Source: Legionella brunensis (GTDB lineage: Bacteria; Pseudomonadota; Gammaproteobacteria; Legionellales; Legionellaceae). From it: a stretch of 64,000 nt of DNA. Both the position numbers and the translations under genes were made by a program. Location: contig NZ_LNXV01000004.1 of the NCBI RefSeq assembly GCF_001467025.1, positions 271,264 through 335,263 on the forward strand. Reading direction: 5' to 3'. The notes beneath the pieces are model-generated. The model was given only the letters and a program-made list of their open reading frames with translations. It ran no database searches and was not told the origin of the DNA. Position 1 is the first letter of the stretch; each line of letters begins with the position of its first letter. Positions 32,525 through 45,535 of this stretch are shown here, piece by piece.

Positions 32525-33832
32525 ATGGACGAAAATTACAGTAAGCAATTGGCTATTCATGTCTGGATAGTTTGTGCCTTAGGTTTGTTTATTGATGGGT
32601 ATGACTTATACATTGCCTCGGTTGCTGAACCTTTTATTAATGCTTTGTACCATCCTTCCTCTCTAATGATAGGACTAACTCAGGCCGCAGCCCCACTAGG
32701 CGCAGTATTTGGAGCCATTATCGTTGGACGACTGGCTGATATGGTTGGCAGAAAAAGCATGCTCATGGTGAATCTTGTCTTTTTTGTCTTCGTAGCCTTA
32801 TTTTCAGCGTGTGCCTGGAATATCACGTCACTGTGTATTTTGCGGTTTTTACTAGGGTTTGGTGTTGGAGCTGATTATCCTATTTGTGCTGCCTATCTTG
32901 CAGAAATGATACCCGAAAATAAAAGCAATAAATTTATTGCTACGGCGATGTTTCTCAATTGCCTTGCTTCTCCAGTAGGGGTAGTTGTTGCCTGGTTTTT
33001 GTTTAAAATATATCCTCATATGGATGTCTGGCGATGGATGTTTGCCTCTGGTGCACTGCCTGCAGTAATCGGCTTATTATTTAGAGCAAAATTACCTGAA
33101 AGCTTTTTATGGAAAGCTCATCAGAAGCTAAAAAACTCAACTACAAAGTCTACAATTATTAGTTATTACGGGAAGCTCTTCTCTCCGAATATGATGAAAG
33201 CCACTTTTTATCTATGCTTTTGCTGGTTCTTTCTTGATATTTCTTATTACGGAATAGGCCTATTTACCCCTTATGTTTTACAAGCATTTGGCATTACGAG
33301 TGATGCTAATTTTATTACAGCACAAGCAGAAGTATTAAAAAGCACTTTATTTGTTAATTTCTTTGTTTCCCTTGGGGCGTTTGCAGTGATCTTTTTTGTC
33401 AATAGAGTTCCCCTTATCAAACTACAAAAAATTGGTTTTCTATTTTCATTTTTAGGTTTATTAATACTTAGTGTTAGTTATCTGTCACCTAATACCAGTA
33501 TGGTATTTTTAGGTTTTATTCTATTTAATTTTTTCATTAATTTTGGCCCTGGGATAACAACGTATTTATTGCCAGCTCAGCTTTATAATCCAGAAGTTAA
33601 AGCGACAGGGCATGGTGTGGCTGCAGGAGCCGGCAAATTTGGTGCTTTTCTGGGGACTGTATTGCTACCTATTTTCCAGGCAAAATTAGATATTTACTTA
33701 ACGGTAAGCATTCTTGCGGGTACCTTATTACTTGGTTGGGCGTTAACGCAACTTTTGGAGAAAGAAAAGGTCAGGCTATCTAAAACAACAGATGATATAT
33801 TGGCAGAGTCATTACTATTACGTAGTACTTAA
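32525..33832 (+). CDS. MFS transporter linked to phosphonate oxidation genes
   Basis: A 435-residue major-facilitator transporter with about twelve membrane helices. It carries GRLADMVGRKSML after helix 2, a FLLGFGVGADYPICAAYLAEM segment near residue 118, and a central RAKLPESFLWK loop, as in the inorganic-phosphate or organic-anion porters. Only 13 bp separate it from the phytanoyl-CoA-dioxygenase-like gene, and the HD-domain gene follows four bases later, so the three form an operon. That suggests an uptake role for 2-aminoethylphosphonate or a similar phosphonate; this is inference from context, since most phosphonates enter through ABC systems. Confidence 0.82.
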   Translation: MDENYSKQLAIHVWIVCALGLFIDGYDLYIASVAEPFINALYHPSSLMIGLTQAAAPLGAVFGAIIVGRLADMVGRKSMLMVNLVFFVFVALFSACAWNITSLCILRFLLGFGVGADYPICAAYLAEMIPENKSNKFIATAMFLNCLASPVGVVVAWFLFKIYPHMDVWRWMFASGALPAVIGLLFRAKLPESFLWKAHQKLKNSTTKSTIISYYGKLFSPNMMKATFYLCFCWFFLDISYYGIGLFTPYVLQAFGITSDANFITAQAEVLKSTLFVNFFVSLGAFAVIFFVNRVPLIKLQKIGFLFSFLGLLILSVSYLSPNTSMVFLGFILFNFFINFGPGITTYLLPAQLYNPEVKATGHGVAAGAGKFGAFLGTVLLPIFQAKLDIYLTVSILAGTLLLGWALTQLLEKEKVRLSKTTDDILAESLLLRST

Positions 33833-33845
33833 AAGCGAGGGAGTT

Positions 33846-34652
33846 ATGTACTATCAATTGAATGAAAAACAACAGGCGTTTTGGAAAAAACATGGCTTTA
33901 TTGTTTTGACGGATTTTTTCCCGTCAGCGTTTAAAAATCAATTGAGAACTTGGTGTGATGAGTTAACAGCATTGCCAGAAACACCAGGTAAATGGATGAA
34001 ATATTTCGAAAAAAATGCACAAGGTCAACGCCAACTTTGCCGCGTAGAAAATTTCATTGATTACCATAAATCTTTGCATGATGTTGCGAATGGTGAACGG
34101 ACACTGGGACTAGTCTCTGAACTAATGAATGAACCTGCTGCCATTTTTAAAGAGAAGATCAATTATAAATTTCCTGGTGGAGGTGGTTTTAAGCCTCATC
34201 AAGATGCACCTGCCTTTGTCAGTTTTAACCAAAAATTTCATATTACGATGATGGTGGCAATTGATGACTGCACTTTGGAGAACGGCTGTTTGCAGGTTGT
34301 TGAGGGTGGGGCTAACAAACCGATTATTCTCCCTCAAGAAGCAGATGGCTCGATTCAAAAAAATATTGCTGCGACTTTGGCTTGGTCACCCATTGAATGC
34401 AGTAGTGGTGATGTGATTTTATTTGACTCGTATCTGCCGCATTATTCAGAACCGAATCGCAGTAATAATCCACGTCGGGCGATGTTTATTACGTTTAATA
34501 AGTTCTCAGAAGGTGGGGAAAAACGAGAAGCTTACTATAAAGATAAACGCGAAAAATTCCCTCCCGATTGTGAGCGTGATCCAAATAAAGATTACGCTGC
34601 TGGTGCTGCAATTTATAATGTTGCTAATCCAATTACTGAAACTATGCAGTGA
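33846..34652 (+). CDS. phnY: PhnY-like phosphonate 2OG-Fe(II) hydroxylase
   Basis: A 268-residue phytanoyl-CoA dioxygenase family protein. Iron ligands H118-x-D120 (KPHQDAP) and H199 (LPHYSEPN) and the 2-oxoglutarate Arg near 211 (NPRRAMF) are all present. The paired HD-domain gene directly downstream identifies it as the PhnY partner: PhnY hydroxylates 2-aminoethylphosphonate at C1 before PhnZ breaks the C-P bond. An open frame reaches back to 33792 inside the transporter gene, but the ATG at 33846 follows a GAGGG site. Without the downstream neighbour it would only be called a PhyH-family oxygenase. Confidence 0.8.
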   Translation: MYYQLNEKQQAFWKKHGFIVLTDFFPSAFKNQLRTWCDELTALPETPGKWMKYFEKNAQGQRQLCRVENFIDYHKSLHDVANGERTLGLVSELMNEPAAIFKEKINYKFPGGGGFKPHQDAPAFVSFNQKFHITMMVAIDDCTLENGCLQVVEGGANKPIILPQEADGSIQKNIAATLAWSPIECSSGDVILFDSYLPHYSEPNRSNNPRRAMFITFNKFSEGGEKREAYYKDKREKFPPDCERDPNKDYAAGAAIYNVANPITETMQ

Positions 34653-34655
34653 ACT

Positions 34656-35318
34656 ATGGAGAATCTAGAGAATAAAATTAATAGGGCGTTCTCCTGTCTT
34701 AAATCAGTTAAAGATACTGACTACATAGGCGAGTCTGTCTCACAATTAGAGCATGCTTTACAAGCTGCTTATTTTGCGGAGCAAGCAGGACATAGTCGGG
34801 AGGTTATTCTAGCCTCTTTATTTCATGATATGGGGCATTTTGCTTCTGATACCCAACAATTTACTATGGCGAATTTGGGGGTGGTTAACCATGAGTGGAT
34901 AGGAGCAAAATTGGCTTATGATTTGGGCTTTTCTGCTAAGGTGGCCTTGTTAGTAGGATATCATGTCGAGGCTAAGCGTTATCTTGCCGCCAAAAAAAGC
35001 AATTACTTCGATAGATTGTCCGAAGCAAGTAAAGGGACTTTAGCGTTTCAAGGGGGCGTCATGTCTTTTGAAGAAATGCATCACTTTGAAACTCATCCTT
35101 ACTTTAAAGAAATTCTTCAGGTAAGGGTTAACGACGAAAAAGCAAAGGAAATAGATTTAAAGGTTCCCGAACTCAATTATTACCGTCCTCATTTGTGTGA
35201 ACATTTCAAGGAGAACAGGGCGTCATTACATCACGACTTGATGTTAACCAATTACATTGATGTAAGATGGGTGGAAAGACTTAAGATTGCTCTTGAGAAG
35301 GGGGCTGAGCGAGCTTAA
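34656..35318 (+). CDS. phnZ: PhnZ-like HD-domain mixed-valence diiron oxygenase
   Basis: A 220-residue HD-domain protein. As I recall the PhnZ structure, its ligands are H34, H58, D59, H80, H104 and D161, with Y24, E27, H62 and K108 at the substrate. The present protein has H33, H57, D58, H79, H103, D160, Y23, E26, H61 and K107: every position is shifted by exactly one. The motifs are YIGESVSQLEHALQ, FHDMGH, VNHEW, GYHVEAKRYL and VRVNDEKAK. PhnZ cleaves hydroxylated 2-aminoethylphosphonate to glycine and phosphate. Starts four bases after phnY. The call is strong; the exact phosphonate (2-AEP or a relative, as with TmpB) is less sure. Confidence 0.88.
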   Translation: MENLENKINRAFSCLKSVKDTDYIGESVSQLEHALQAAYFAEQAGHSREVILASLFHDMGHFASDTQQFTMANLGVVNHEWIGAKLAYDLGFSAKVALLVGYHVEAKRYLAAKKSNYFDRLSEASKGTLAFQGGVMSFEEMHHFETHPYFKEILQVRVNDEKAKEIDLKVPELNYYRPHLCEHFKENRASLHHDLMLTNYIDVRWVERLKIALEKGAERA

Positions 35319-37068: not shown

Positions 37069-37131
37069 ATGAAAAATCAAAGCAATAATGAGTCGATTAA
37101 ATTTAAATTGCAAAAACTAGCGTCCATTTAA
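37069..37131 (+). CDS. 20-codon leader ORF upstream of hlyD
   Basis: An ATG at 37069 follows a strong GAGAGGGG site at normal spacing and opens a 20-residue peptide (starts MKNQSNNES, ends LQKLASI) that stops eight bases before the hlyD ATG. hlyD itself has no ribosome-binding site, so its translation may be coupled to this peptide. The peptide does not resemble the two precursor leaders and has no GG site. Possibly a leader peptide or a degenerate precursor. Small size keeps confidence low. Confidence 0.4.
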   Translation: MKNQSNNESIKFKLQKLASI

Positions 37132-37139
37132 ATTATCCC

Positions 37140-38147
37140 ATGGATAATAAGTCATCACTCTTCAGACAAGAGGCAATCGATAGCCGCCTAAATAGAAGTT
37201 TAGGTAGTGTTTCTATTAATATACCTTTAAGTTATCGAATTATCAGCGTCGTTTTAGTGGTTTTTATTTTGATAATTATAATTTTTTTATTTTTTGCAAA
37301 AACCTCAGAAAAAATAGTTGTTCGTGGTTATTTAGATACGGAGCACGGTATTACTTCTGTGTACTCTGATTCCAGAGGGATTATTACTCAGTCAATGATC
37401 GAGGAAGGGGAGCGTATAACTAAAAACAGTACCCTCTTTGTTATTGCGCGAGCAGGCCAGGAAAAAACTAGAGAGTTTCTCGAAAATCTTAATCAGAGAA
37501 GGAAAAATCTTAAGAATGAATACCAAATAAAAAAGAAATATTGCCAATCTTTATCCAAGTTATATAAGAAACATTATGTTTCACTGACATTGTTACAAAA
37601 TACAAAGGCCGAACTACTAGAAATTAGAAATAGAATAAAATCAGTCGACTTAGAACTCATCCAATTCAAACAAAATCAATACCAGCTAATCAAGTCACCT
37701 ATTAATGGTGTTGTCACTAATATTCTTTACAAAGAGGGGCAATCAATTGATCCATCAAAAGCATTGCTGCAAATACTACCTGATAATGCCAAATTAATCG
37801 CTAGATTATACATACCTGCTCAAAATATTGGTTTCTTAAAAAAAGGAGACTCCGTTGCTATAAAATACGATGCTTATCCTTCCCAAAGATTTGGGATTTA
37901 TAAAGCTCTAGTGAAAGAAATTAATTTAACTGTATTGACGGATGACAAAGAAGACAAACCAATTAATGTTGGGCAACCCTATTATAAAATTAAAGCGGAG
38001 CTTGATAAATATTATGTGAATGTGTATGGGGAAAAGACTAATCTGAGTCATGGAATGACCCTGACAGCCGTATTTTCCGGTGACAAAAGAAAGATGTGGC
38101 AATGGATTTTAGACCCTATCTTCAGTTATTACGGGAAAGTTTCATGA
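37140..38147 (+). CDS. HlyD-family periplasmic adaptor of the peptide exporter
   Basis: A 335-residue membrane fusion protein. A short cytoplasmic start is followed by one membrane helix at about residues 28-50 (ISVVLVVFILIIIIFLFF), a biotinyl-lipoyl-like strand region (KIVVRGYLDTEHG), a coiled-coil hairpin at about 95-180, and a second lipoyl half with PINGVVTNILYKEGQ near 183. Such adaptors link an ABC peptide exporter in the inner membrane to a TolC channel. Its stop overlaps the start of the C39 exporter by four bases (ATGA), and it is the first large gene of the RiPP cluster. No ribosome-binding site of its own. Confidence 0.88.
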   Translation: MDNKSSLFRQEAIDSRLNRSLGSVSINIPLSYRIISVVLVVFILIIIIFLFFAKTSEKIVVRGYLDTEHGITSVYSDSRGIITQSMIEEGERITKNSTLFVIARAGQEKTREFLENLNQRRKNLKNEYQIKKKYCQSLSKLYKKHYVSLTLLQNTKAELLEIRNRIKSVDLELIQFKQNQYQLIKSPINGVVTNILYKEGQSIDPSKALLQILPDNAKLIARLYIPAQNIGFLKKGDSVAIKYDAYPSQRFGIYKALVKEINLTVLTDDKEDKPINVGQPYYKIKAELDKYYVNVYGEKTNLSHGMTLTAVFSGDKRKMWQWILDPIFSYYGKVS

Positions 38148-40237
38148 TGGAGTTAAGTTTAAAATTGTCTAGATCCGAAAAAAATAAACTTCCGGTAATT
38201 AGACAAGATCAAATTTCCGAATGCGGTCATGCTTGTGTGGTAATGATAAGTAATTTTTACGGTCATGATATCGATTTATTTTCTTTAAGAGAGTTAGATA
38301 CCCCATCCTTAAATGGCGGTACAATGCTTGATTTGGTTAAGCTCTTAGAACGATTAAAGCTTAAATCCAGGGCACTAAGGGTAGATATTGAAGAGCTCGG
38401 GAAGGTTAGATGTCCCGCTATTTTACACTGGGATATGAATCATTTTGTGGTCTTAAAATACGTGGGTCATAATTATGTTGTGATTCACGATCCTGCAACA
38501 GGGCGAAGAAAAATTCTTATGAGTGAATTATCAAGTTCATTTACTGGGATTGCCCTAGAGGTTGAAAAAAATGACGAATTTAAAAATATTCATTTATGTA
38601 ATAGATTAAAACTCGTTAACCTTTTTAAAAATGTAAAGGGTATCAAAAGTAGTTTGCTCACATTGTTATTACTATCGTTAGCTATCGAAGTATTTATATT
38701 ACTCAATCCACTTTTTCTGCAATATGTCACTGACAATATTGCCACTACTACTAATCTTAATAATCTTTATGTAATAGCTACAGGAGTAATAATATTAACA
38801 GTTTTTCATGCTTTCACAGAGTATGTAAGAAGTAACTTTGTAATCTATTTAACTAACAGCCTATCAGAATATTTTTCTTCTGGTGTTATGAGTCACCTGT
38901 TAAAACTACCTCTTGAATATTTTGAGAGAAGGCATAAAGGGGATATCTTATCAAGATTTCACTCTGTCAATGAGATTCAAAGTAAAATTACTACCGATTC
39001 AATTAATACCGTTTTAGATGGTCTTGTCATTGTATTAGCATTAATAATTATGTCTGTTTACAGTTGGTTCCTAACACTTATTGTTACCAGCGCATTTACC
39101 ATTTATCTTCTTCTAAGAGCAATATCTTACAATCATTTGAAGAATCAAACGGAGATCTCTATAGGTGAACATGCGAATGTTAATTCAAAATTTTTGGAGA
39201 TTATCCAAAGCATTATGCCAGTTAAGATCTTTGCGAAAGAAGAGACAATGTACCGAAGCTGGAAAAATTATTTTATTAAGGCAGTCAATGCAGATATTAA
39301 AATTTCACAGGCTAATATTGTCTATAATGTCTCTAATATTTTGCTATTTAATTTCGAGCATGTTTTAGTAATATGTATTGGTGCAACCTTGGTTATTACC
39401 AATCAGTTTTCAGTAGGTATGTTGGTTGCTTTTCTTGCTTATAGACAGACATTAGTTAATAAAGCCACTTCGTTTATCCATAAGATATTTGAGTATAAAC
39501 TCATTACAATTCAAATTAACAGGATTGCAGACATTCTGACTCAACCTCTCCCCCCTGAAGACCCAAATATTGTAAAAGAACATATTCAGGGTGATATAAA
39601 AGTCGAAAATGTAACCTATAAATATCCGGGTAATTCTAAACCTATTTTTGATAAAATAAGCGTTCATATTCGCCAAGCCGAAAAAGTAGTTATTACAGGT
39701 TCTTCAGGTATCGGAAAAACAACCTTACTTAAGATTATGCTGGGATTGATACCCCCAACTGAAGGTAAAATTTTAGTTGACGATGTTTCCCTGGATGCTT
39801 TAGGCCAGAGAAGATACCGTGAAATTTGTTCTAGTGTTATGCAGGATGACTCCTTAATTAGTGGTTCGATTTTAGATAATATAACGTTCATGGACGCCAA
39901 GATCGATATTGAGAGAGTTTATGAGGCTGCTAAAATAGCGCAAATTCATAATGATATTCTGAGTATGACAATGGGCTATGAAACATTAGTTGGTGATATG
40001 GGAAGCTCATTATCGGGTGGGCAAAAGCAAAGAATATTAATTGCCAGGGCATTGTATAAAAAGCCAAAGATATTATTTCTAGATGAAGCAACGAGTCATT
40101 TGGACATTGCAAAAGAAATTAAAATTAATGCAGCGTTAAAAGAGTTACAAATAACACAAATAGTAATCGCTCATCGACAAGAAACAATTAATATGGCAGA
40201 TAGGATTATCGATCTGTCTAATCAAGCATATCCTTGA
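38144..40237 (+). CDS. C39-peptidase ABC exporter (PCAT) of the graspetide cluster
   Basis: A 697-residue three-part protein. The N-terminal C39 peptidase has Q21, catalytic C27 (SECGHAC), H100 (NHFVVL) and D116 (IHDPATG), the full set for cutting after a Gly-Gly leader end. A six-helix ABC membrane domain lies at about 160-440. The ATPase domain has Walker A GSSGIGKTT near 519, LSGGQKQR near 622 and LFLDEATSHLD just after. It should remove the leaders of the two GG-precursor peptides encoded downstream and export the cores through the HlyD adaptor. Starts inside the hlyD stop; ATG 38144 (or 38147) is chosen over an open frame from 38096. Confidence 0.93.
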   Translation: MMELSLKLSRSEKNKLPVIRQDQISECGHACVVMISNFYGHDIDLFSLRELDTPSLNGGTMLDLVKLLERLKLKSRALRVDIEELGKVRCPAILHWDMNHFVVLKYVGHNYVVIHDPATGRRKILMSELSSSFTGIALEVEKNDEFKNIHLCNRLKLVNLFKNVKGIKSSLLTLLLLSLAIEVFILLNPLFLQYVTDNIATTTNLNNLYVIATGVIILTVFHAFTEYVRSNFVIYLTNSLSEYFSSGVMSHLLKLPLEYFERRHKGDILSRFHSVNEIQSKITTDSINTVLDGLVIVLALIIMSVYSWFLTLIVTSAFTIYLLLRAISYNHLKNQTEISIGEHANVNSKFLEIIQSIMPVKIFAKEETMYRSWKNYFIKAVNADIKISQANIVYNVSNILLFNFEHVLVICIGATLVITNQFSVGMLVAFLAYRQTLVNKATSFIHKIFEYKLITIQINRIADILTQPLPPEDPNIVKEHIQGDIKVENVTYKYPGNSKPIFDKISVHIRQAEKVVITGSSGIGKTTLLKIMLGLIPPTEGKILVDDVSLDALGQRRYREICSSVMQDDSLISGSILDNITFMDAKIDIERVYEAAKIAQIHNDILSMTMGYETLVGDMGSSLSGGQKQRILIARALYKKPKILFLDEATSHLDIAKEIKINAALKELQITQIVIAHRQETINMADRIIDLSNQAYP

Positions 40238-40525
40238 TGTTTTAACACTAAAAATTCCTTTTATCTTCTCTAATAAAGATTTATAACAATATAAGCTAAT
40301 AAAGCAGATTAAGTTATTGTTATTAAATATTTTTATTTAAACATCATAGTTCAAATATCATGAAAATAAAAGGAATTCAATACCATAATTAAGCAAGTTT
40401 ATATCGCTATAAAATTGATGATAATTAATCATCTTTAGTGATAGATAACAATCTAATAGGAGTTAGATAATAGCAAGTACAACTAAAGATTAATTAAAAA
40501 AATAATTAAAAATATGGAGAATGTA
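40238..40525 (+). other. AT-rich leader region with an operator-like dyad before precursor 1
   Basis: 288 bases without a convincing gene separate the exporter from the first precursor. At 40417-40433 a dyad GATGAT-AATTA-ATCATC could be an operator; it loosely recalls a Fur box but does not match one. The strong AT content fits a separate promoter for the precursor-ligase units. No terminator with a T run is seen after the exporter, so read-through is also possible. Confidence 0.4.
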
Positions 40526-40699
40526 ATGGAAGATAAAGAGCGAGTTTTTGCTTATCAATTAGCTAAAACTATCGATAATGAGGAATTAGATAAGGTCTCT
40601 GGAGGTAGTGCACTGATGACTAGTAGACAGACAGTGCGTGCAACGGCTGGCAGTGGACAAGGTGCTGATGTTGCATACGATGTTGCGTTTGATTGGTAA
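40526..40699 (+). CDS. Graspetide precursor peptide 1 (GG leader)
   Basis: A 57-residue peptide: leader of 27 residues (MEDKERVFAYQLAKTIDNEE, then LDKVSGG) and a 30-residue core. Cutting after Gly27 by the C39 domain gives a core with Thr at positions 5, 9 and 13 and Asp at 21, 25 and 29, ending in Trp30; only these positions and an Ala14 recur in precursor 2 at matching places. The pattern fits three side-chain esters made by the ATP-grasp ligase encoded 80 bp downstream. An upstream ATG at 40514 is in frame, but ATG 40526 has GGAG six bases before it and aligns with precursor 2. No known graspetide that I recall has this core. Confidence 0.85.
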   Translation: MEDKERVFAYQLAKTIDNEELDKVSGGSALMTSRQTVRATAGSGQGADVAYDVAFDW

Positions 40700-40714
40700 T
40701 TGTTGACTTCAAAT

Positions 40715-40739
40715 TTAGGGCTCAGATTATGAGCCCTAA
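40715..40739 (+). promoter_or_regulatory. Perfect hairpin between precursor 1 and its ligase gene
   Basis: A perfect 10-bp stem (TTAGGGCTCA) with a five-base loop, 16 bases after the precursor stop, no T run after it. It probably stabilises the precursor mRNA or partly attenuates transcription so that more precursor than ligase is made. Confidence 0.6.
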
Positions 40740-40779
40740 TGAAAGAATAATTAATTCTATTATCATATAAAGAGAAAAA

Positions 40780-41886
40780 ATGAAGTTTTTAATCCCTACA
40801 GAACCGGATGATACGCACGCCATACTTGTTAAAATCGCACTTGAAAATTTAGGGCATCAAGTACGGCTTCTGTTTACAGCAGACCAACCAACCAAACAAA
40901 AAAATTCAGTATCTATTAGCAGTGAGGGTTATGAGTGGAGCAGTTCTGACAAGTATAGCTCGATTTCAGACAACGATTATGATGTCGTATGGTGGCGTCG
41001 TGCAAGAAAACCTTATATCCCCAAAGAAATAATTCATAAAAAGGATCACAAATTTGTTGTTAGAGAAAATGTATTATTCTATGAATCATTAACCTATAGT
41101 TTTGCACCAGAGGCATGGTGGATCAATACAAAAGAGTCGGCTCATAGAGCTAATTCTAAATTGCTTCAGTTAAAAATAGCTCGTGAATCGGGTATGGATA
41201 TTCCTGTTACACTTTGTTCCAACGATCCTCAAGATATACGACATTTTTTGTTAAAACACGACAAAGAAGGGGTTATCTATAAACCCCTTTGTTCCAATTT
41301 TTGGTTTGAAGGAAAAAAAATTAAAATTTCTTATACGTCAAAAATCAATTTTCCCGATCTTCCAAGCAACAAATCCTTACAACTCGTCCCTGGAATTTTC
41401 CAAAAAGAAATCAAGAAAAAATATGAATTGAGAGTTACATGCTTTGGCGACTTTCTCGTGGCCGCAAAATTAAATTCTCAAAGTTATGAAGAGGGACAGA
41501 TTGATTGGCGAGCAATATCAGAAGGAAAAATGACAATTGAACCTTACACACTACCTTCAATGATTGAGTATAAAATACGAGATTTTATGTCCAAAATAGG
41601 AATCGTATTTGGTTCATTTGATTTTATTGTGACCCCTAACAATGACTATGTTTTTCTTGAAGTTAACGAGCAAGGTCAGTTTTTATGGATTGAGGAATAT
41701 AACTCTGAGTTTAAAATGCTAGATATTTTTATTAATTTCCTACTCAATAAATCTAAAAAATTTATGTGGGAGCCTAAGAAATTGATGCATACCATAGAAA
41801 TTTACAGAAATGAGATGACGGAAATATTTTCAAAAAATACAAGATATCATGTGAATTTAAATAATGAGAAAACACATAATGAGTAA
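40780..41886 (+). CDS. MvdC/MvdD-like ATP-grasp ligase 1 (graspetide macrocyclase)
   Basis: A 368-residue ATP-grasp enzyme of the microviridin-type peptide ligase family. Its N-terminal EPDDTHAILVK and the DVVWWRR element at 69-74, the ARESGMDIPVTLCSNDPQ linker near 142-159, FQKEIKKKYELRVTCFG near 207-223 and FLEVNEQGQFLWIE near 295-308 (metal ligands E and N) are the family signatures. Such enzymes activate Asp or Glu side chains with ATP and join them to Thr, Ser or Lys. The linked precursor has three Thr and three Asp in fixed register, so ester formation is expected. Second ligase, 43277, is a close paralogue. Confidence 0.88.
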   Translation: MKFLIPTEPDDTHAILVKIALENLGHQVRLLFTADQPTKQKNSVSISSEGYEWSSSDKYSSISDNDYDVVWWRRARKPYIPKEIIHKKDHKFVVRENVLFYESLTYSFAPEAWWINTKESAHRANSKLLQLKIARESGMDIPVTLCSNDPQDIRHFLLKHDKEGVIYKPLCSNFWFEGKKIKISYTSKINFPDLPSNKSLQLVPGIFQKEIKKKYELRVTCFGDFLVAAKLNSQSYEEGQIDWRAISEGKMTIEPYTLPSMIEYKIRDFMSKIGIVFGSFDFIVTPNNDYVFLEVNEQGQFLWIEEYNSEFKMLDIFINFLLNKSKKFMWEPKKLMHTIEIYRNEMTEIFSKNTRYHVNLNNEKTHNE

Positions 41887-41895
41887 GGAGTAATT

Positions 41896-42942
41896 GTGAT
41901 AAAAACAGTGTTAGTAGTATTAGGTTTAATCTCATCTGCTAATTTATTTTCTAAAAACGTTGTTGATTTGTACGGAACGAATGCCAAAAAGTCTGAAGAA
42001 ATAATAAAAAAATACTCAAATGAAGTGGGGTATATTGAAAATTTATTACAAGAGAACTTTAGGAAAATAAGTGACAATTTAGAAAAAGAAATCCCTGAAA
42101 AAATTTTAATGAAAAAATATTTGTTAGAGGAGAAAATAAAAAGAGAGGGTAATTTTTTATTTGTGAATTTTTCTACTATTCTATACCCCGGTGATAATAA
42201 TCAATATACGACTATTGAAGTTATTGATAAAAACCAACCAGATAGATTGCAATTTGTTAATCAACGAGTTGTAACTGCAAGCCAGCCCAAAGATGACTTA
42301 ATTAATAAGATGGTAAACTTCATAAATTTAGATTTACAACTCATGCCTAATAATCAAAAAAGGAGCGACTCATGCCCTGTCTATCATTGCCTCAGCGGCT
42401 TTAATCATCCTAAATTAAAACCTTACTTGAAAGTTTTTAATACTGGTGCTGTAAAAGAAAAGCAATTGATAGCAGATACACTAAATAAAGATCCCGATCC
42501 TGAAAGAAGAGCTGCTGCTGCTTTTTTAATAGGGCACTTTCATGATCCAAAGGAAATTCTTTCTCTCTTATTGCCACACGTCAATGATCAAGATATCGGT
42601 GTTAGGAATAATGTAATTCGCGTCATCGCTGCGACGATGAGTAAGTCAAAAATTACCCAGATCGATTTGATGCCTTTTTTGAGTTTGATAGATTCACCAG
42701 CAACAACAGATAGGAATAAGGCTCTTCATGTATTACTAAACGCAGCAGATTCTGAGTCTTCAAAAAAAGTTATTACTCAAAAGGGTGGGGGGACATTAAT
42801 AGCCTTGCTACAACTGAAACAGCCTAATAATCATCAAATAGCTTACCTAATCTTTAAAAAAATAAGCGGAAAAGATTTTGGGGAAAATAATATAGCGGCT
42901 TGGAAAAGTTGGTTAGCTTCAGTGCAATCTCGAAAGGGTTAA
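41896..42942 (+). CDS. Secreted HEAT-repeat protein in the graspetide cluster
   Basis: A 348-residue protein that begins with a signal peptide (VLVVLGLISSANLFS, residues about 4-19), so it is probably periplasmic. A helical charged region (30-90) and a small beta-like region (90-140) are followed by HEAT-like helical repeats from about residue 175 (RRAAAAFLIGHFHDP and VRNNVIRVIAATM). Two cysteines in a CPVYHC motif (near 161-166) could form a disulphide. A GTG start follows AAGGAG at five bases. Lying between the two precursor-ligase units, it may be an immunity, export or target-binding factor; no family function is known. Confidence 0.75.
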   Translation: MIKTVLVVLGLISSANLFSKNVVDLYGTNAKKSEEIIKKYSNEVGYIENLLQENFRKISDNLEKEIPEKILMKKYLLEEKIKREGNFLFVNFSTILYPGDNNQYTTIEVIDKNQPDRLQFVNQRVVTASQPKDDLINKMVNFINLDLQLMPNNQKRSDSCPVYHCLSGFNHPKLKPYLKVFNTGAVKEKQLIADTLNKDPDPERRAAAAFLIGHFHDPKEILSLLLPHVNDQDIGVRNNVIRVIAATMSKSKITQIDLMPFLSLIDSPATTDRNKALHVLLNAADSESSKKVITQKGGGTLIALLQLKQPNNHQIAYLIFKKISGKDFGENNIAAWKSWLASVQSRKG

Positions 42943-43033
42943 GCACAAGATTTCAAGGATGAGAAATTATAATAATAAGCTTAATAATGAAGGGATTCAT
43001 ATTGTTAAGTTTAATAACAACTAGGAAAGATAA

Positions 43034-43204
43034 ATGGAAAATATAAAAGAGCGAGTCCTAGCCTATGGCTTATCAACGGAAATTAGTGAGTCTGATTTGC
43101 ATGATGTTACTGGAGGGGCCGGAAAATTAACGCACTACGTTACTCACTATTATACTGCTAAAAAAGCTGGGGGAGATAGAGAGCGTGATGATGATTGGGA
43201 TTAA
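43034..43204 (+). CDS. Graspetide precursor peptide 2 (GG leader), short and easily missed
   Basis: A 56-residue peptide read directly from the DNA: leader MENIKERVLAYGLSTEISES, then DLHDVTGG, and a 28-residue core. Leader identity with precursor 1 is clear (KERVxAYxL, then LxxVxGG). In the core Thr sits at positions 5, 9 and 13, exactly as in precursor 1, and Asp at 20, 24 and 28; further acids (E22, D25, D26) add alternative acceptors. All other core residues differ. An AGGA site precedes the ATG. It is below the size limit of usual gene callers. A ligase gene follows 72 bases after the stop. Confidence 0.85.
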   Translation: MENIKERVLAYGLSTEISESDLHDVTGGAGKLTHYVTHYYTAKKAGGDRERDDDWD

Positions 43205-43215
43205 ATAATTTTTTC

Positions 43216-43241
43216 GTGACCCTGATATAAATCAGGGTCAC
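43216..43241 (+). promoter_or_regulatory. Perfect hairpin between precursor 2 and its ligase gene
   Basis: A perfect stem of 10-11 bp (GTGACCCTGA pairing with TCAGGGTCAC), 12 bases after the precursor stop and without a T run downstream. It occupies the same place as the hairpin after precursor 1, although the sequence differs. Confidence 0.6.
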
Positions 43242-43276
43242 ATCAAGACAATCTCTTACATGGAAACGAGTAATCT

Positions 43277-44389
43277 ATGAATATTCTGATAGCAACAGAG
43301 CCCGATGATGTACATGCTCAGCTTGTAAAATTAGCTCTCGAAGATAAAGGACACACTTGCATATTATGGTTTATGGCTGATATACCTACAAAACAGATTA
43401 ATAGCATTTATTGTTCAAATGAACACTATCAATGGGTGTCTGAAAATAATATTGATACCCCAATAGAAATAGACGATGGTTCTTTTGATGTGGTGTGGTG
43501 GAGAAGACCCAGACGTCCCTTTGTTCCTGAAACTTTACACCAAAATGATATTGATTTTATTAAAAAAGAAAACTCTATATTCTACGACTCAATCCCCTTG
43601 GCAATTAATAGATCATGGTGGATTAACCCCTATGAATCTATCAAATACGCAAATTCAAAGCCATATCAATTAAAATTGGCAGCTCGTTCAGGTTTTAATA
43701 TTCCTTCGACATTAGTATCAAATTCTCCCGAAAGAATTAAAGAGTTTATATTAAAGCATGATGAAAAAAATGTTATCTACAAGGGGTTTTCTTCGCATCA
43801 TTGGTTAGAGAACGATAGGTTAAGACTCTCGTATACTAAAACTGTGACCTTAGATCAATTACCTACAGATTATATCCTTCAAATGACTCCCGGCATCTTT
43901 CAGGAAAAACTACAAAAGAAATATGAATTAAGAGTGACCTGTTTTGGCGGATACATCGTTGCCGTAAAAATTGATTCGCAGCAACATCCGAAGGGAATGG
44001 GAGATTGGCGAGTTATTCCCCCAAATGAATTAAAAATTGAACCTTATCAGCTATCCCCAAGGATTGAAAATATGATTCGAGTGTTCATGAAAAGATTAGG
44101 GGTGGTATTTGGATGCTTTGATTTTATAGTCACTCCTGAAGATGCAATTTATTTTCTTGAGATTAACCAACAAGGGCAGTTTTTGTGGATTGAAGATTTA
44201 TATCCAGATTTAAAGATGCTAGATATTTTTGTTAATTTTATTTTGCAAAAATCGGCTACTTTTAGCTGGGATAATCATCACGCGGCAATTAGTCTAAAAG
44301 ACTATGAACTTCTAGCGTTTAATGCGGTTAGAAAAAATATGGAGAAGCATGTTTATCTCAATGCAATTAAAAAATTAAACGCTTCATAA
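43277..44389 (+). CDS. MvdC/MvdD-like ATP-grasp ligase 2 (graspetide macrocyclase)
   Basis: A 370-residue paralogue of ligase 1, recognisably similar throughout by eye. Shared elements include TEPDD-VHAQLVKLALE at the start, DVVWWRR at 71-77, SGFNIPSTLVSNSPERI near 148, FQEKLQKKYELRVTCFGGYIVAVK near 210-233, and FLEINQQGQFLWIEDLYPDLKMLDIF near 298-323, with the metal-binding E-x-N. It is expected to modify precursor 2, but cross-reaction with precursor 1 is possible because the leaders are alike. Spacing from precursor 2 is 72 bases with the hairpin between. Confidence 0.88.
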   Translation: MNILIATEPDDVHAQLVKLALEDKGHTCILWFMADIPTKQINSIYCSNEHYQWVSENNIDTPIEIDDGSFDVVWWRRPRRPFVPETLHQNDIDFIKKENSIFYDSIPLAINRSWWINPYESIKYANSKPYQLKLAARSGFNIPSTLVSNSPERIKEFILKHDEKNVIYKGFSSHHWLENDRLRLSYTKTVTLDQLPTDYILQMTPGIFQEKLQKKYELRVTCFGGYIVAVKIDSQQHPKGMGDWRVIPPNELKIEPYQLSPRIENMIRVFMKRLGVVFGCFDFIVTPEDAIYFLEINQQGQFLWIEDLYPDLKMLDIFVNFILQKSATFSWDNHHAAISLKDYELLAFNAVRKNMEKHVYLNAIKKLNAS

Positions 44390-44512
44390 TTAAGTTTTAG
44401 AACAACAGGTGATTATTCCTGTTAAAAACTTTAGTGAGTAATTTTTTATCGATACTCTTGATACTCAACTGAATTTTCACCTAGACTGTAGTTTCAGAAT
44501 ATGGGAGTTGCT

Positions 44513-45535
44513 ATGAGCTACGGAAAGCTTCAACTGCTTCTACTGGGGCTATTACTGGACATCCTCGGCCAGAGAGTGGCTTTTTCAGAGGTTCTTTTTA
44601 ATTGTGATGGTTCTCAAGCTTACCCCTGTCTTGTTCAAGAATCTCTAAATTCAGTCAATCCCGTCATGAATCTTCGCGATATCCGCTTAATAAGAAACTA
44701 CTATTCGGGTGATATTAGCGGTATAGACTCCCTGAATTTATCTGCCAGTGCGATGCCAAACGCAGTAGGTTGGGGGGAAGTTAAAAATTATATTGAGCAG
44801 CAAGCACCAGCTATGCCGCAAAAAATCATTGTTGTTGATTTGCGCCAAGAAAGTCACGGTTATTTAAATGGAATGGCAATTAATTTAACCACCGCACATA
44901 ACTGGATTAATATCAATAAAACTAATGAAGAAATTAAATTAGCTGAGAAAAATTGGCTATTTTTTTTGAAAAGTCAAATGATGGTTTCGGGCGTACTTAC
45001 TCCCCAGCAGTTCGAAACTCACGATTATTTACAAGGCAGAAGTATTGAAATACACACTATCCAAGATGAGGAAGAAGCTGTTAAGGAAAAAGGCTTGGAT
45101 TATGTGCGTTTTTATGTAAGCGACCATCGTGCTCCAGTTGATAATGAGGTTGATCGATTTGTTGAGTTTTATAAGCACCTTGAGGCGAATACGTGGCTGC
45201 ATATTCATTGTCGTGGGGGTAAAGGGCGCTCAACTAGTTTTCTTGCCTTGGTCGATATGTTAAACAATGCGGATAAAGTGAGTTTTGAGGAAATTTTAGC
45301 GCGACAAGCAGCAATTCCACCTTTCTATAATCTGGGATTAATTGTTAGAAGTGATCCAGAGCTAACTCCTTTTTACATTGAGCGGTTACAGTTTTTACGA
45401 CAATTTTACTATTATTCTCAAGCTTCCATACATGGATATAAGGGGACCTGGTCTGAATGGAAAAACTCCAGAGAGGTTGCATTAGGCCACGATATATTCC
45501 AATGGGGGTATGACAAATCTTTTTATCTTAAGTGA
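44513..45535 (+). CDS. Secreted PTP-like phytase / inositol polyphosphatase
   Basis: A 340-residue protein with an N-terminal signal (LQLLLLGLLLDILGQRVAFS, about residues 6-25). The catalytic P-loop is HCRGGKGRS at 232-240 (C233 nucleophile, R239). VDLRQESHGYLNG near 115-127 and VSDHRAPVDNEV near 200-212, with a general-acid Asp, are the other hallmarks of cysteine phytases, which remove phosphate from myo-inositol phosphates. ATG 44513 follows GGAG five bases upstream; ATG 44501 is also in frame. It follows the RiPP cluster by about 120 bp but seems functionally unrelated. Secretion from an intracellular bacterium makes a host-directed role conceivable. Confidence 0.78.
   Translation: MSYGKLQLLLLGLLLDILGQRVAFSEVLFNCDGSQAYPCLVQESLNSVNPVMNLRDIRLIRNYYSGDISGIDSLNLSASAMPNAVGWGEVKNYIEQQAPAMPQKIIVVDLRQESHGYLNGMAINLTTAHNWININKTNEEIKLAEKNWLFFLKSQMMVSGVLTPQQFETHDYLQGRSIEIHTIQDEEEAVKEKGLDYVRFYVSDHRAPVDNEVDRFVEFYKHLEANTWLHIHCRGGKGRSTSFLALVDMLNNADKVSFEEILARQAAIPPFYNLGLIVRSDPELTPFYIERLQFLRQFYYYSQASIHGYKGTWSEWKNSREVALGHDIFQWGYDKSFYLK

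Follow-up and report, generated by a model that had tools for sequence, protein, structure and literature searches.

A two-module graspetide-type locus of Legionella brunensis and a ligase-associated HEAT-repeat protein with a likely role in self-protection

A stretch of 64,000 nucleotides from Legionella brunensis (NCBI RefSeq assembly GCF_001467025.1, contig NZ_LNXV01000004.1, positions 271,264 to 335,263 of the forward strand; referred to below as the window) carries a seven-gene cluster of graspetide type, graspetides being a class of ribosomally synthesized and post-translationally modified peptides (RiPPs). All seven genes lie on the + strand and encode, in this order, an adaptor, an exporter, precursor 1, ligase 1, a HEAT-repeat protein (HEAT protein), precursor 2 and ligase 2 (Table 1). 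This order had been proposed in a preliminary description of the sequence and is borne out by the open reading frames (ORFs) and domain matches. On balance, the sequence evidence leads us to favour a graspetide-type locus with two precursor-ligase pairs, whose peptides would carry three-bond ladders, an exporter that would cut behind the GG ending of the leaders, and a HEAT protein that would protect the producer in the periplasm. As graspetides are already known, Legionella included (PMC9576775), the interest of the locus lies in this likely shield protein.

Table 1. Features of the cluster, in positions of the window
Feature	Position	Strand	Parts	Evidence
HlyD-type periplasmic adaptor	37140..38147	+		PF13437 3.9e-14, PF16576 2.6e-12
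C39-peptidase ABC exporter	38144..40237	+		Peptidase_C39 7.3e-34, ABC_membrane 1.1e-34, ABC_tran 2.1e-29
Precursor 1, 57 aa	40526..40699	+	leader 40526-40606, ending GG; core 40607-40696	ORF, core pattern
Ligase 1, ATP-grasp peptide ligase, first clade	40780..41886	+		graspetide models below cut-offs, solved macrocyclases, tree
HEAT protein, predicted secreted	41896..42942	+		HEAT_2 PF13646 3.8e-7
POTRA-like N-domain of HEAT protein	41953-42273	+		structure model, fold comparison
C-P-x-x-H-C motif of HEAT protein	42373-42390	+		conservation
HEAT/armadillo domain of HEAT protein	about 42418-42936	+		structure model, fold comparison
Precursor 2, 56 aa	43034..43204	+	leader 43034-43117, ending GG; core 43118-43201	ORF, core pattern
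Ligase 2, ATP-grasp peptide ligase, second clade	43277..44389	+		NCBIfam models below cut-offs, 5ig9, alignment, tree

Two ligases of separate clades

Both ligases match the MvdC, MvdD and SAV_5884 models (E 5e-43 to 8e-57), with scores of 147-193 bits that lie under every curated cut-off (350-475). The MvdC/MvdD maturase models TIGR04185 (181.6 and 158.8 bits against 425) and TIGR04184 (175.2 and 147.5 bits against 475) were not reached, and the enzymes are therefore relatives of MvdC/MvdD and not MvdC/MvdD proper; the signatures noted in the preliminary description are present as model matches but fall short of the curated level. A profile of the ligase family found the solved macrocyclases 5ig9 (E 2.6e-55), 7m4s (AMdnB), 5ig8, 7mgv (CdnC) and 9bou, and weakly 7drm, and ligase 2 by itself found 5ig9 at 2.1e-34. 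By sequence, the microviridin-type ligases among these (5ig9, 5ig8, AMdnB and CdnC) belong to the same fold family over nearly the full length. Each module pairs an ATP-grasp ligase from the family of peptide macrocyclases with an adjoining precursor, whose leader is followed by a core with donors (Ser, Thr or Lys in graspetides) and acceptors (Asp or Glu), as expected of the two-module graspetide-type cluster proposed earlier.

The two ligases share 49% identity, and the closest named relatives, among the best 120 of 691 matches, are those of L. clemsonensis and L. cardiaca (66% each). Other comparisons drew on the best 120 of 410 matches and on 80 of 159. Among 143 Legionellaceae genomes, 68 hold a ligase relative, pieces included. 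A midpoint-rooted tree of 83 ligases separates a clade of 62, with ligase 1, from a clade of 21, with ligase 2 (support 100/98). The frame-broken loci L087 and L137 were omitted here, as well as from the exporter tree, the divergence comparison and the wider core count described below. In the two-module loci, all nine first-position ligases fall into the clade of 62 and all nine second-position ligases into the clade of 21, and therefore the window unites two old enzyme types. This placement speaks against a recent tandem duplication as the source of the two modules. Spread by plasmids was rejected as well: 84 plasmid records matched, just one of them closely (a 27.5-kb L. adelaidensis record, 59.7% identity). 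A third ligase had no match in the L. brunensis genome (3.75 Mb, 37 contigs).

Several relatives differ in the state of their modules. L113 has kept precursor 2 while its ligase 2 is reduced to a short fragment, so that module 2 appears to be decaying, and in L042 module 2 is absent. The two-module cluster of Legionella tunisiensis (L087, L137) lies in many pieces through frame breaks, perhaps an effect of draft assembly. A metagenome-assembled genome labelled Myxococcales (L073) carries a ligase and a HEAT gene inside a Legionellales-type family, which points to misbinning or transfer.

Donor and acceptor ladders in the precursor cores

Both leaders end in GG, as had been described. For precursor 1, position 40526 is the best choice of start, with GGAG directly upstream; the peptide matches the Pfam family Bacteriocin_IIc at 0.001, below the cut-off, and a homologue search with it returned only itself. 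Precursors were gathered by a leader rule, which gave 120 matches, 92 of them distinct, and 85 non-redundant cores. The rule was drawn up after the sequences had been seen, and the spacing of four was noticed on the same data.

The cores share a pattern of donors, [ST]-x3-[ST]-x3-[ST], followed by acceptors, [DE]-x3-[DE]-x3-[DE]. At spacing 4, ladders of three by three or more are present in 50 of the 85 cores, compared with 2, 0, 0, 0 and 0 at spacings 2, 3, 5, 6 and 7, and with a mean of 0.06 (maximum 1) in 1000 shuffles. Ladders of two by two or more at spacing 4 occur in 79/85 cores (0-14 at other spacings; shuffles 7.1, maximum 18). A narrower leader rule, which missed the RVFAY leaders, retained L087 and L137 and needed precursor 1 to be added by hand, had given counts of 47/81 and 41/75. 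The lengths of donor and acceptor runs are correlated (Spearman 0.54, kinship uncorrected). Both window cores are three by three, with donors T5, T9 and T13; the acceptors are D21, D25 and D29 in core 1 and D20, D24 and D28 in core 2.

The step from the last donor to the first acceptor is 7-8 residues in 42 of 48 three-by-three cores and in 8 of 12 two-by-two cores. Because parallel pairing would alter ring size with the number of rungs, a step that stays constant across rung numbers leads to the prediction of nested rings: T13-D21 innermost, then T9-D25 and T5-D29 in core 1, and T13-D20 innermost, then T9-D24 and T5-D28 in core 2. Shorter cores would form two rings and full ladders three nested ones. 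Two observations weigh against nesting, namely that the 7-8 step is found in just 4/11 and 2/7 of the unequal cores, and in 49/79 cores when no minimum gap of five is imposed.

The earlier statement that no graspetide had been described from Legionella does not hold. The Gra-7 graspetides of Legionella pneumophila ("group 8") were made in Escherichia coli in 2022; two precursors are served by one ligase, each peptide undergoes three dehydrations (water losses), and the ring positions were left unsolved (PMC9576775, section 11). Gra-7 resembles the present system in its Legionella host, its ATP-grasp ligase and its three dehydrations, with which the three rungs predicted here agree. It differs in that one ligase acts on two precursors where the window has two ligases, and in that section 11 of that paper mentions no partner protein. 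A L. pneumophila ligase, P0048, which may be the Gra-7 enzyme, is 61-64% identical to the clade-2 ligases. The ladder pattern makes the connectivity left unsolved for Gra-7 a testable prediction; should the group 8 consensus (Lee et al. 2020) already be such a ladder, the core pattern would be less new, and the HEAT partner would be unaffected. At three clade-2 loci (L036, L038, L041), two or three different precursors stand ahead of one ligase, as reported for Gra-7.

The leader type is RVLAY, with RVFAY in precursor 1, and lacks PFFARFL, unlike that of microviridins, and the combination of GG leader and C39 exporter likewise sets the window apart from microviridin-type systems. The cores of window type presumably lack the microviridin pattern. 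In microviridin-type ligases, ring closure is leader-dependent.

An exporter with a history of its own

With the start at the ATG at 38144, the exporter has Q21, C27, H100 and D116 all at the expected positions, so that the intact C39 triad reported earlier (C27, H100, D116) stands, with Q21 besides. Its C39 domain, Cys-His-Asp triad and ABC membrane and ATPase domains are those of a peptidase-containing ABC transporter; against the NHLM/NHLP model TIGR03796 it scores 462.5 bits, under the curated cut-off of 853.3. The gene overlaps that of the adaptor by 4 bases. No TolC-type gene lies within the cluster, and the 21 OEP-domain matches of the genome include none on the contig of the window.

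The same gene set recurs in other Legionella, where the preliminary description had advised looking for the same gene order; the exporter gene is last in 40/40 relatives and first in the window alone. In the exporter tree, the window exporter forms a group with eight exporters from other loci (100/99), apart from the exporters of the eight other two-module loci. The loci nearest by ligase 1 are L055, L113 and L115, whereas those nearest by exporter are L036, L039 and L037. L129, in which adaptor and exporter are broken, was omitted from this tree and from the divergence comparison. Given the first position found only here, the tree placement and the different nearest loci, the simplest reading is that the exporter was likely exchanged and has a history separate from that of the ligases. 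The exporter tree, divergence and gene order together speak against the exporter as a long-standing companion of these ligases.

The exporter's place and history, the old split between the ligases, the spacing-4 pattern and the partnership of the HEAT protein with the ligases had all been overlooked in the preliminary description, which was otherwise correct in part.

The HEAT protein and its likely function

HEAT_2 scores 30.7 bits in the HEAT protein, over the gathering score of 27.7, and the start of the protein looks signal-peptide-like by eye. Structure models, including a separate one for the N-domain, reached pLDDT 92 and 93. Armadillo/HEAT chains filled the match list of the whole-model fold search; since such a search hardly probes the N-domain, this part was modelled separately. 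The model suggests, modestly, a POTRA-like fold. No Foldseek match of the N-domain model to POTRA was found under E 0.001, and Pfam comparison of 41 N-domains gave scattered weak matches only; the families listed did not include a POTRA model. The protein differs from the Omp85 proteins that bear POTRA domains (BamA, TamA, Toc75), as it has no barrel and its POTRA-like part is fused to HEAT repeats.

Across the 143 Legionellaceae genomes, 67 of 71 HEAT matches lie no more than 1 kb from a ligase match (median gap 39 bases). Among the 71 matches, one broken gene of G138 accounts for four and pieces in G001 for two, and the copies of G013 and G039 were scored as far solely because their contigs end there. 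HEAT and ligase co-occur in 59 genomes, 9 have the ligase only, 1 has HEAT only and 74 have neither (Fisher p 3e-29, shared ancestry uncorrected); G135 and G138 entered the count as ligase-bearing although the match is to pieces alone, and the single HEAT-only genome, G064, retains a 42-residue ligase tail. Proximity and co-occurrence speak against a hitchhiking gene and make the HEAT protein a ligase partner rather than a bystander.

The nine ligase genomes without HEAT suggest what the partnership concerns. In three (loci L131-L133), an RVLAY leader is followed by a conserved tail that lacks both GG and an acid ladder, and in five (G016, G017, G019, in which the ligase is partial, G020 and G021) no leader-type ORF and no exporter were found in the 3.9 to 8 kb examined. 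Since an exportable precursor was not seen in eight of the nine, over the stretch examined, HEAT seems to accompany an exportable product. The L131-L133 loci (G104, G108, G109) are near-identical in this tail and have neither exporter nor HEAT gene in the 15 kb examined; their peptide is perhaps used inside the cell.

Divergence over 41 loci pairs ligase with HEAT (r 0.904) and adaptor with exporter (r 0.917), with cross pairs at 0.47-0.55 and a partial HEAT-exporter correlation, given ligase, of -0.065. Should the HEAT protein be secreted while the ligase stays in the cell, the product would be the expected connection between them. The HEAT gene also outlasts the ligase in three places. Intact copies are found at L177, where 11.5 kb around the gene hold no ligase; at L178, next to a ligase tail of 42 residues and an adaptor stump of 52; and at L179, next to fragments of the ligase. 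Because HEAT diverges with the ligase and survives its loss, a lopsided pattern, periplasmic self-protection is its likely function. A RiPP immunity protein would be expected to be cognate, to lie beside the producer genes, to persist once production is lost and to give protection; the observations that bear on this are adjacency, the shared divergence with the ligase and the three orphan copies. In the mechanism that we propose, each ligase would tie the Thr ladder of its own precursor to the Asp ladder through three side-chain bonds, the exporter would cleave behind GG and export the peptide, passage would continue by way of a TolC-type channel whose gene lies outside the cluster, and the HEAT protein, sitting in the periplasm, would bind the cell's own peptide and so give immunity. 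The peptides may serve against competing bacteria or amoeba-associated microbes, the use suggested in the preliminary description.

A number of observations count against self-protection. Without the deep clades, the ligase-HEAT correlation falls to 0.757 against 0.781 for ligase-exporter (37 loci), and in two further sets ligase-HEAT weakens to 0.792 against 0.640 (35 loci) and to 0.698 against 0.508 (29 loci); the partial HEAT-exporter term climbs to 0.35-0.46 across these sets. Orphan HEAT copies number just three, and the genome of L177 carries other ligase-HEAT pairs. G048, the ninth ligase genome without HEAT, has a precursor and an exporter on a 4.3-kb contig and no HEAT gene found in the genome. 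One HEAT gene of the window would need to serve two peptides. Finally, G460, from another family, has two ligases, each next to a weakly matching HEAT homologue with the gene order reversed, and three further weak homologues that stand away from ligases; all of these homologues lack the Cys motif.

The HEAT protein might instead be a periplasmic helper (a chaperone, folding or export factor) that hands the ring-closed peptide on from the exporter. The operon-like row that the gene forms with ligase and exporter in 40/40 relatives would suit this role, and partner proteins required for graspetide making are known, as the account of rosaritide and corallotide in PMC13097080 indicates. Those partners likewise co-occur strictly with the synthetase; they serve biosynthesis, whereas the HEAT protein has a signal-like start and can outlast the ligase. 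Against this role, HEAT divergence tracks the ligase and not the exporter in three of the four locus sets, and the gene is intact at the three ligase-less places, in one of which the adaptor is a stump. We regard the helper role as possible but doubtful. A role of the peptides as signals or cargo, with the HEAT protein as a periplasmic receptor or scavenging protein for returning peptide, is unlikely. The two-domain, binding-type architecture would suit receptor and immunity protein equally, and orphan receptors might likewise be retained; however, the conserved neighbourhood showed neither a sensor kinase nor a regulator or uptake gene, a weak point as the comparison was confined to the window's own gene families. 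That the ATP-grasp proteins act on another substrate, in the manner of RimK or glutathione synthase, and the small ORFs are plain bacteriocins is very improbable. The ligases do fall below every curated graspetide cut-off, but models of RimK and glutathione synthase match them far more weakly (E 0.0003 to 0.12), the nearest solved structures are peptide macrocyclases and the neighbouring precursors hold donor and acceptor ladders. These findings speak against the non-peptide ATP-grasp family, membership of which the preliminary description had named as a refutation.

Within the self-protection reading, a more specific and decidedly speculative version is target mimicry: in competitors, the laddered graspetides would hit the POTRA portion of the machinery for outer-membrane assembly (Omp85/BAM), and the producer's secreted POTRA-HEAT protein would catch the cell's own peptides first. 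We consider it a long shot. If true, it would add a new kind of RiPP self-protection and reveal the target for a graspetide lineage whose ring number equals its T-x3 / D-x3 rung count. For most graspetides, little is known about their function or about the survival of their producers, and an immunity-like HEAT protein offers a handle on both target and function. Our literature search found no paper joining a graspetide with an immunity protein, nor one joining a HEAT repeat with a graspetide or with RiPP and ATP-grasp; in the main texts of PMC8939145 and PMC13097080, supplements aside, HEAT and Legionella go unmentioned as far as those texts were covered.

Around the cluster, no supported gene was found at 37069-37139, and counts of promoter-like sites (32, with 33.8 expected) and terminators (1, with 3.8 expected) were uninformative. 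The next gene, at 44501-45535, encodes a PTP-like phytase (PF14566 3e-22; XopH model 5.9e-49, below its cut-off); it was unmatched in the neighbour loci of relatives and so lies outside the cluster there. Upstream, at 33792-35318, a PhyH dioxygenase gene adjoins an HD-domain gene, a pair that may resemble PhnY/PhnZ for phosphonate use.
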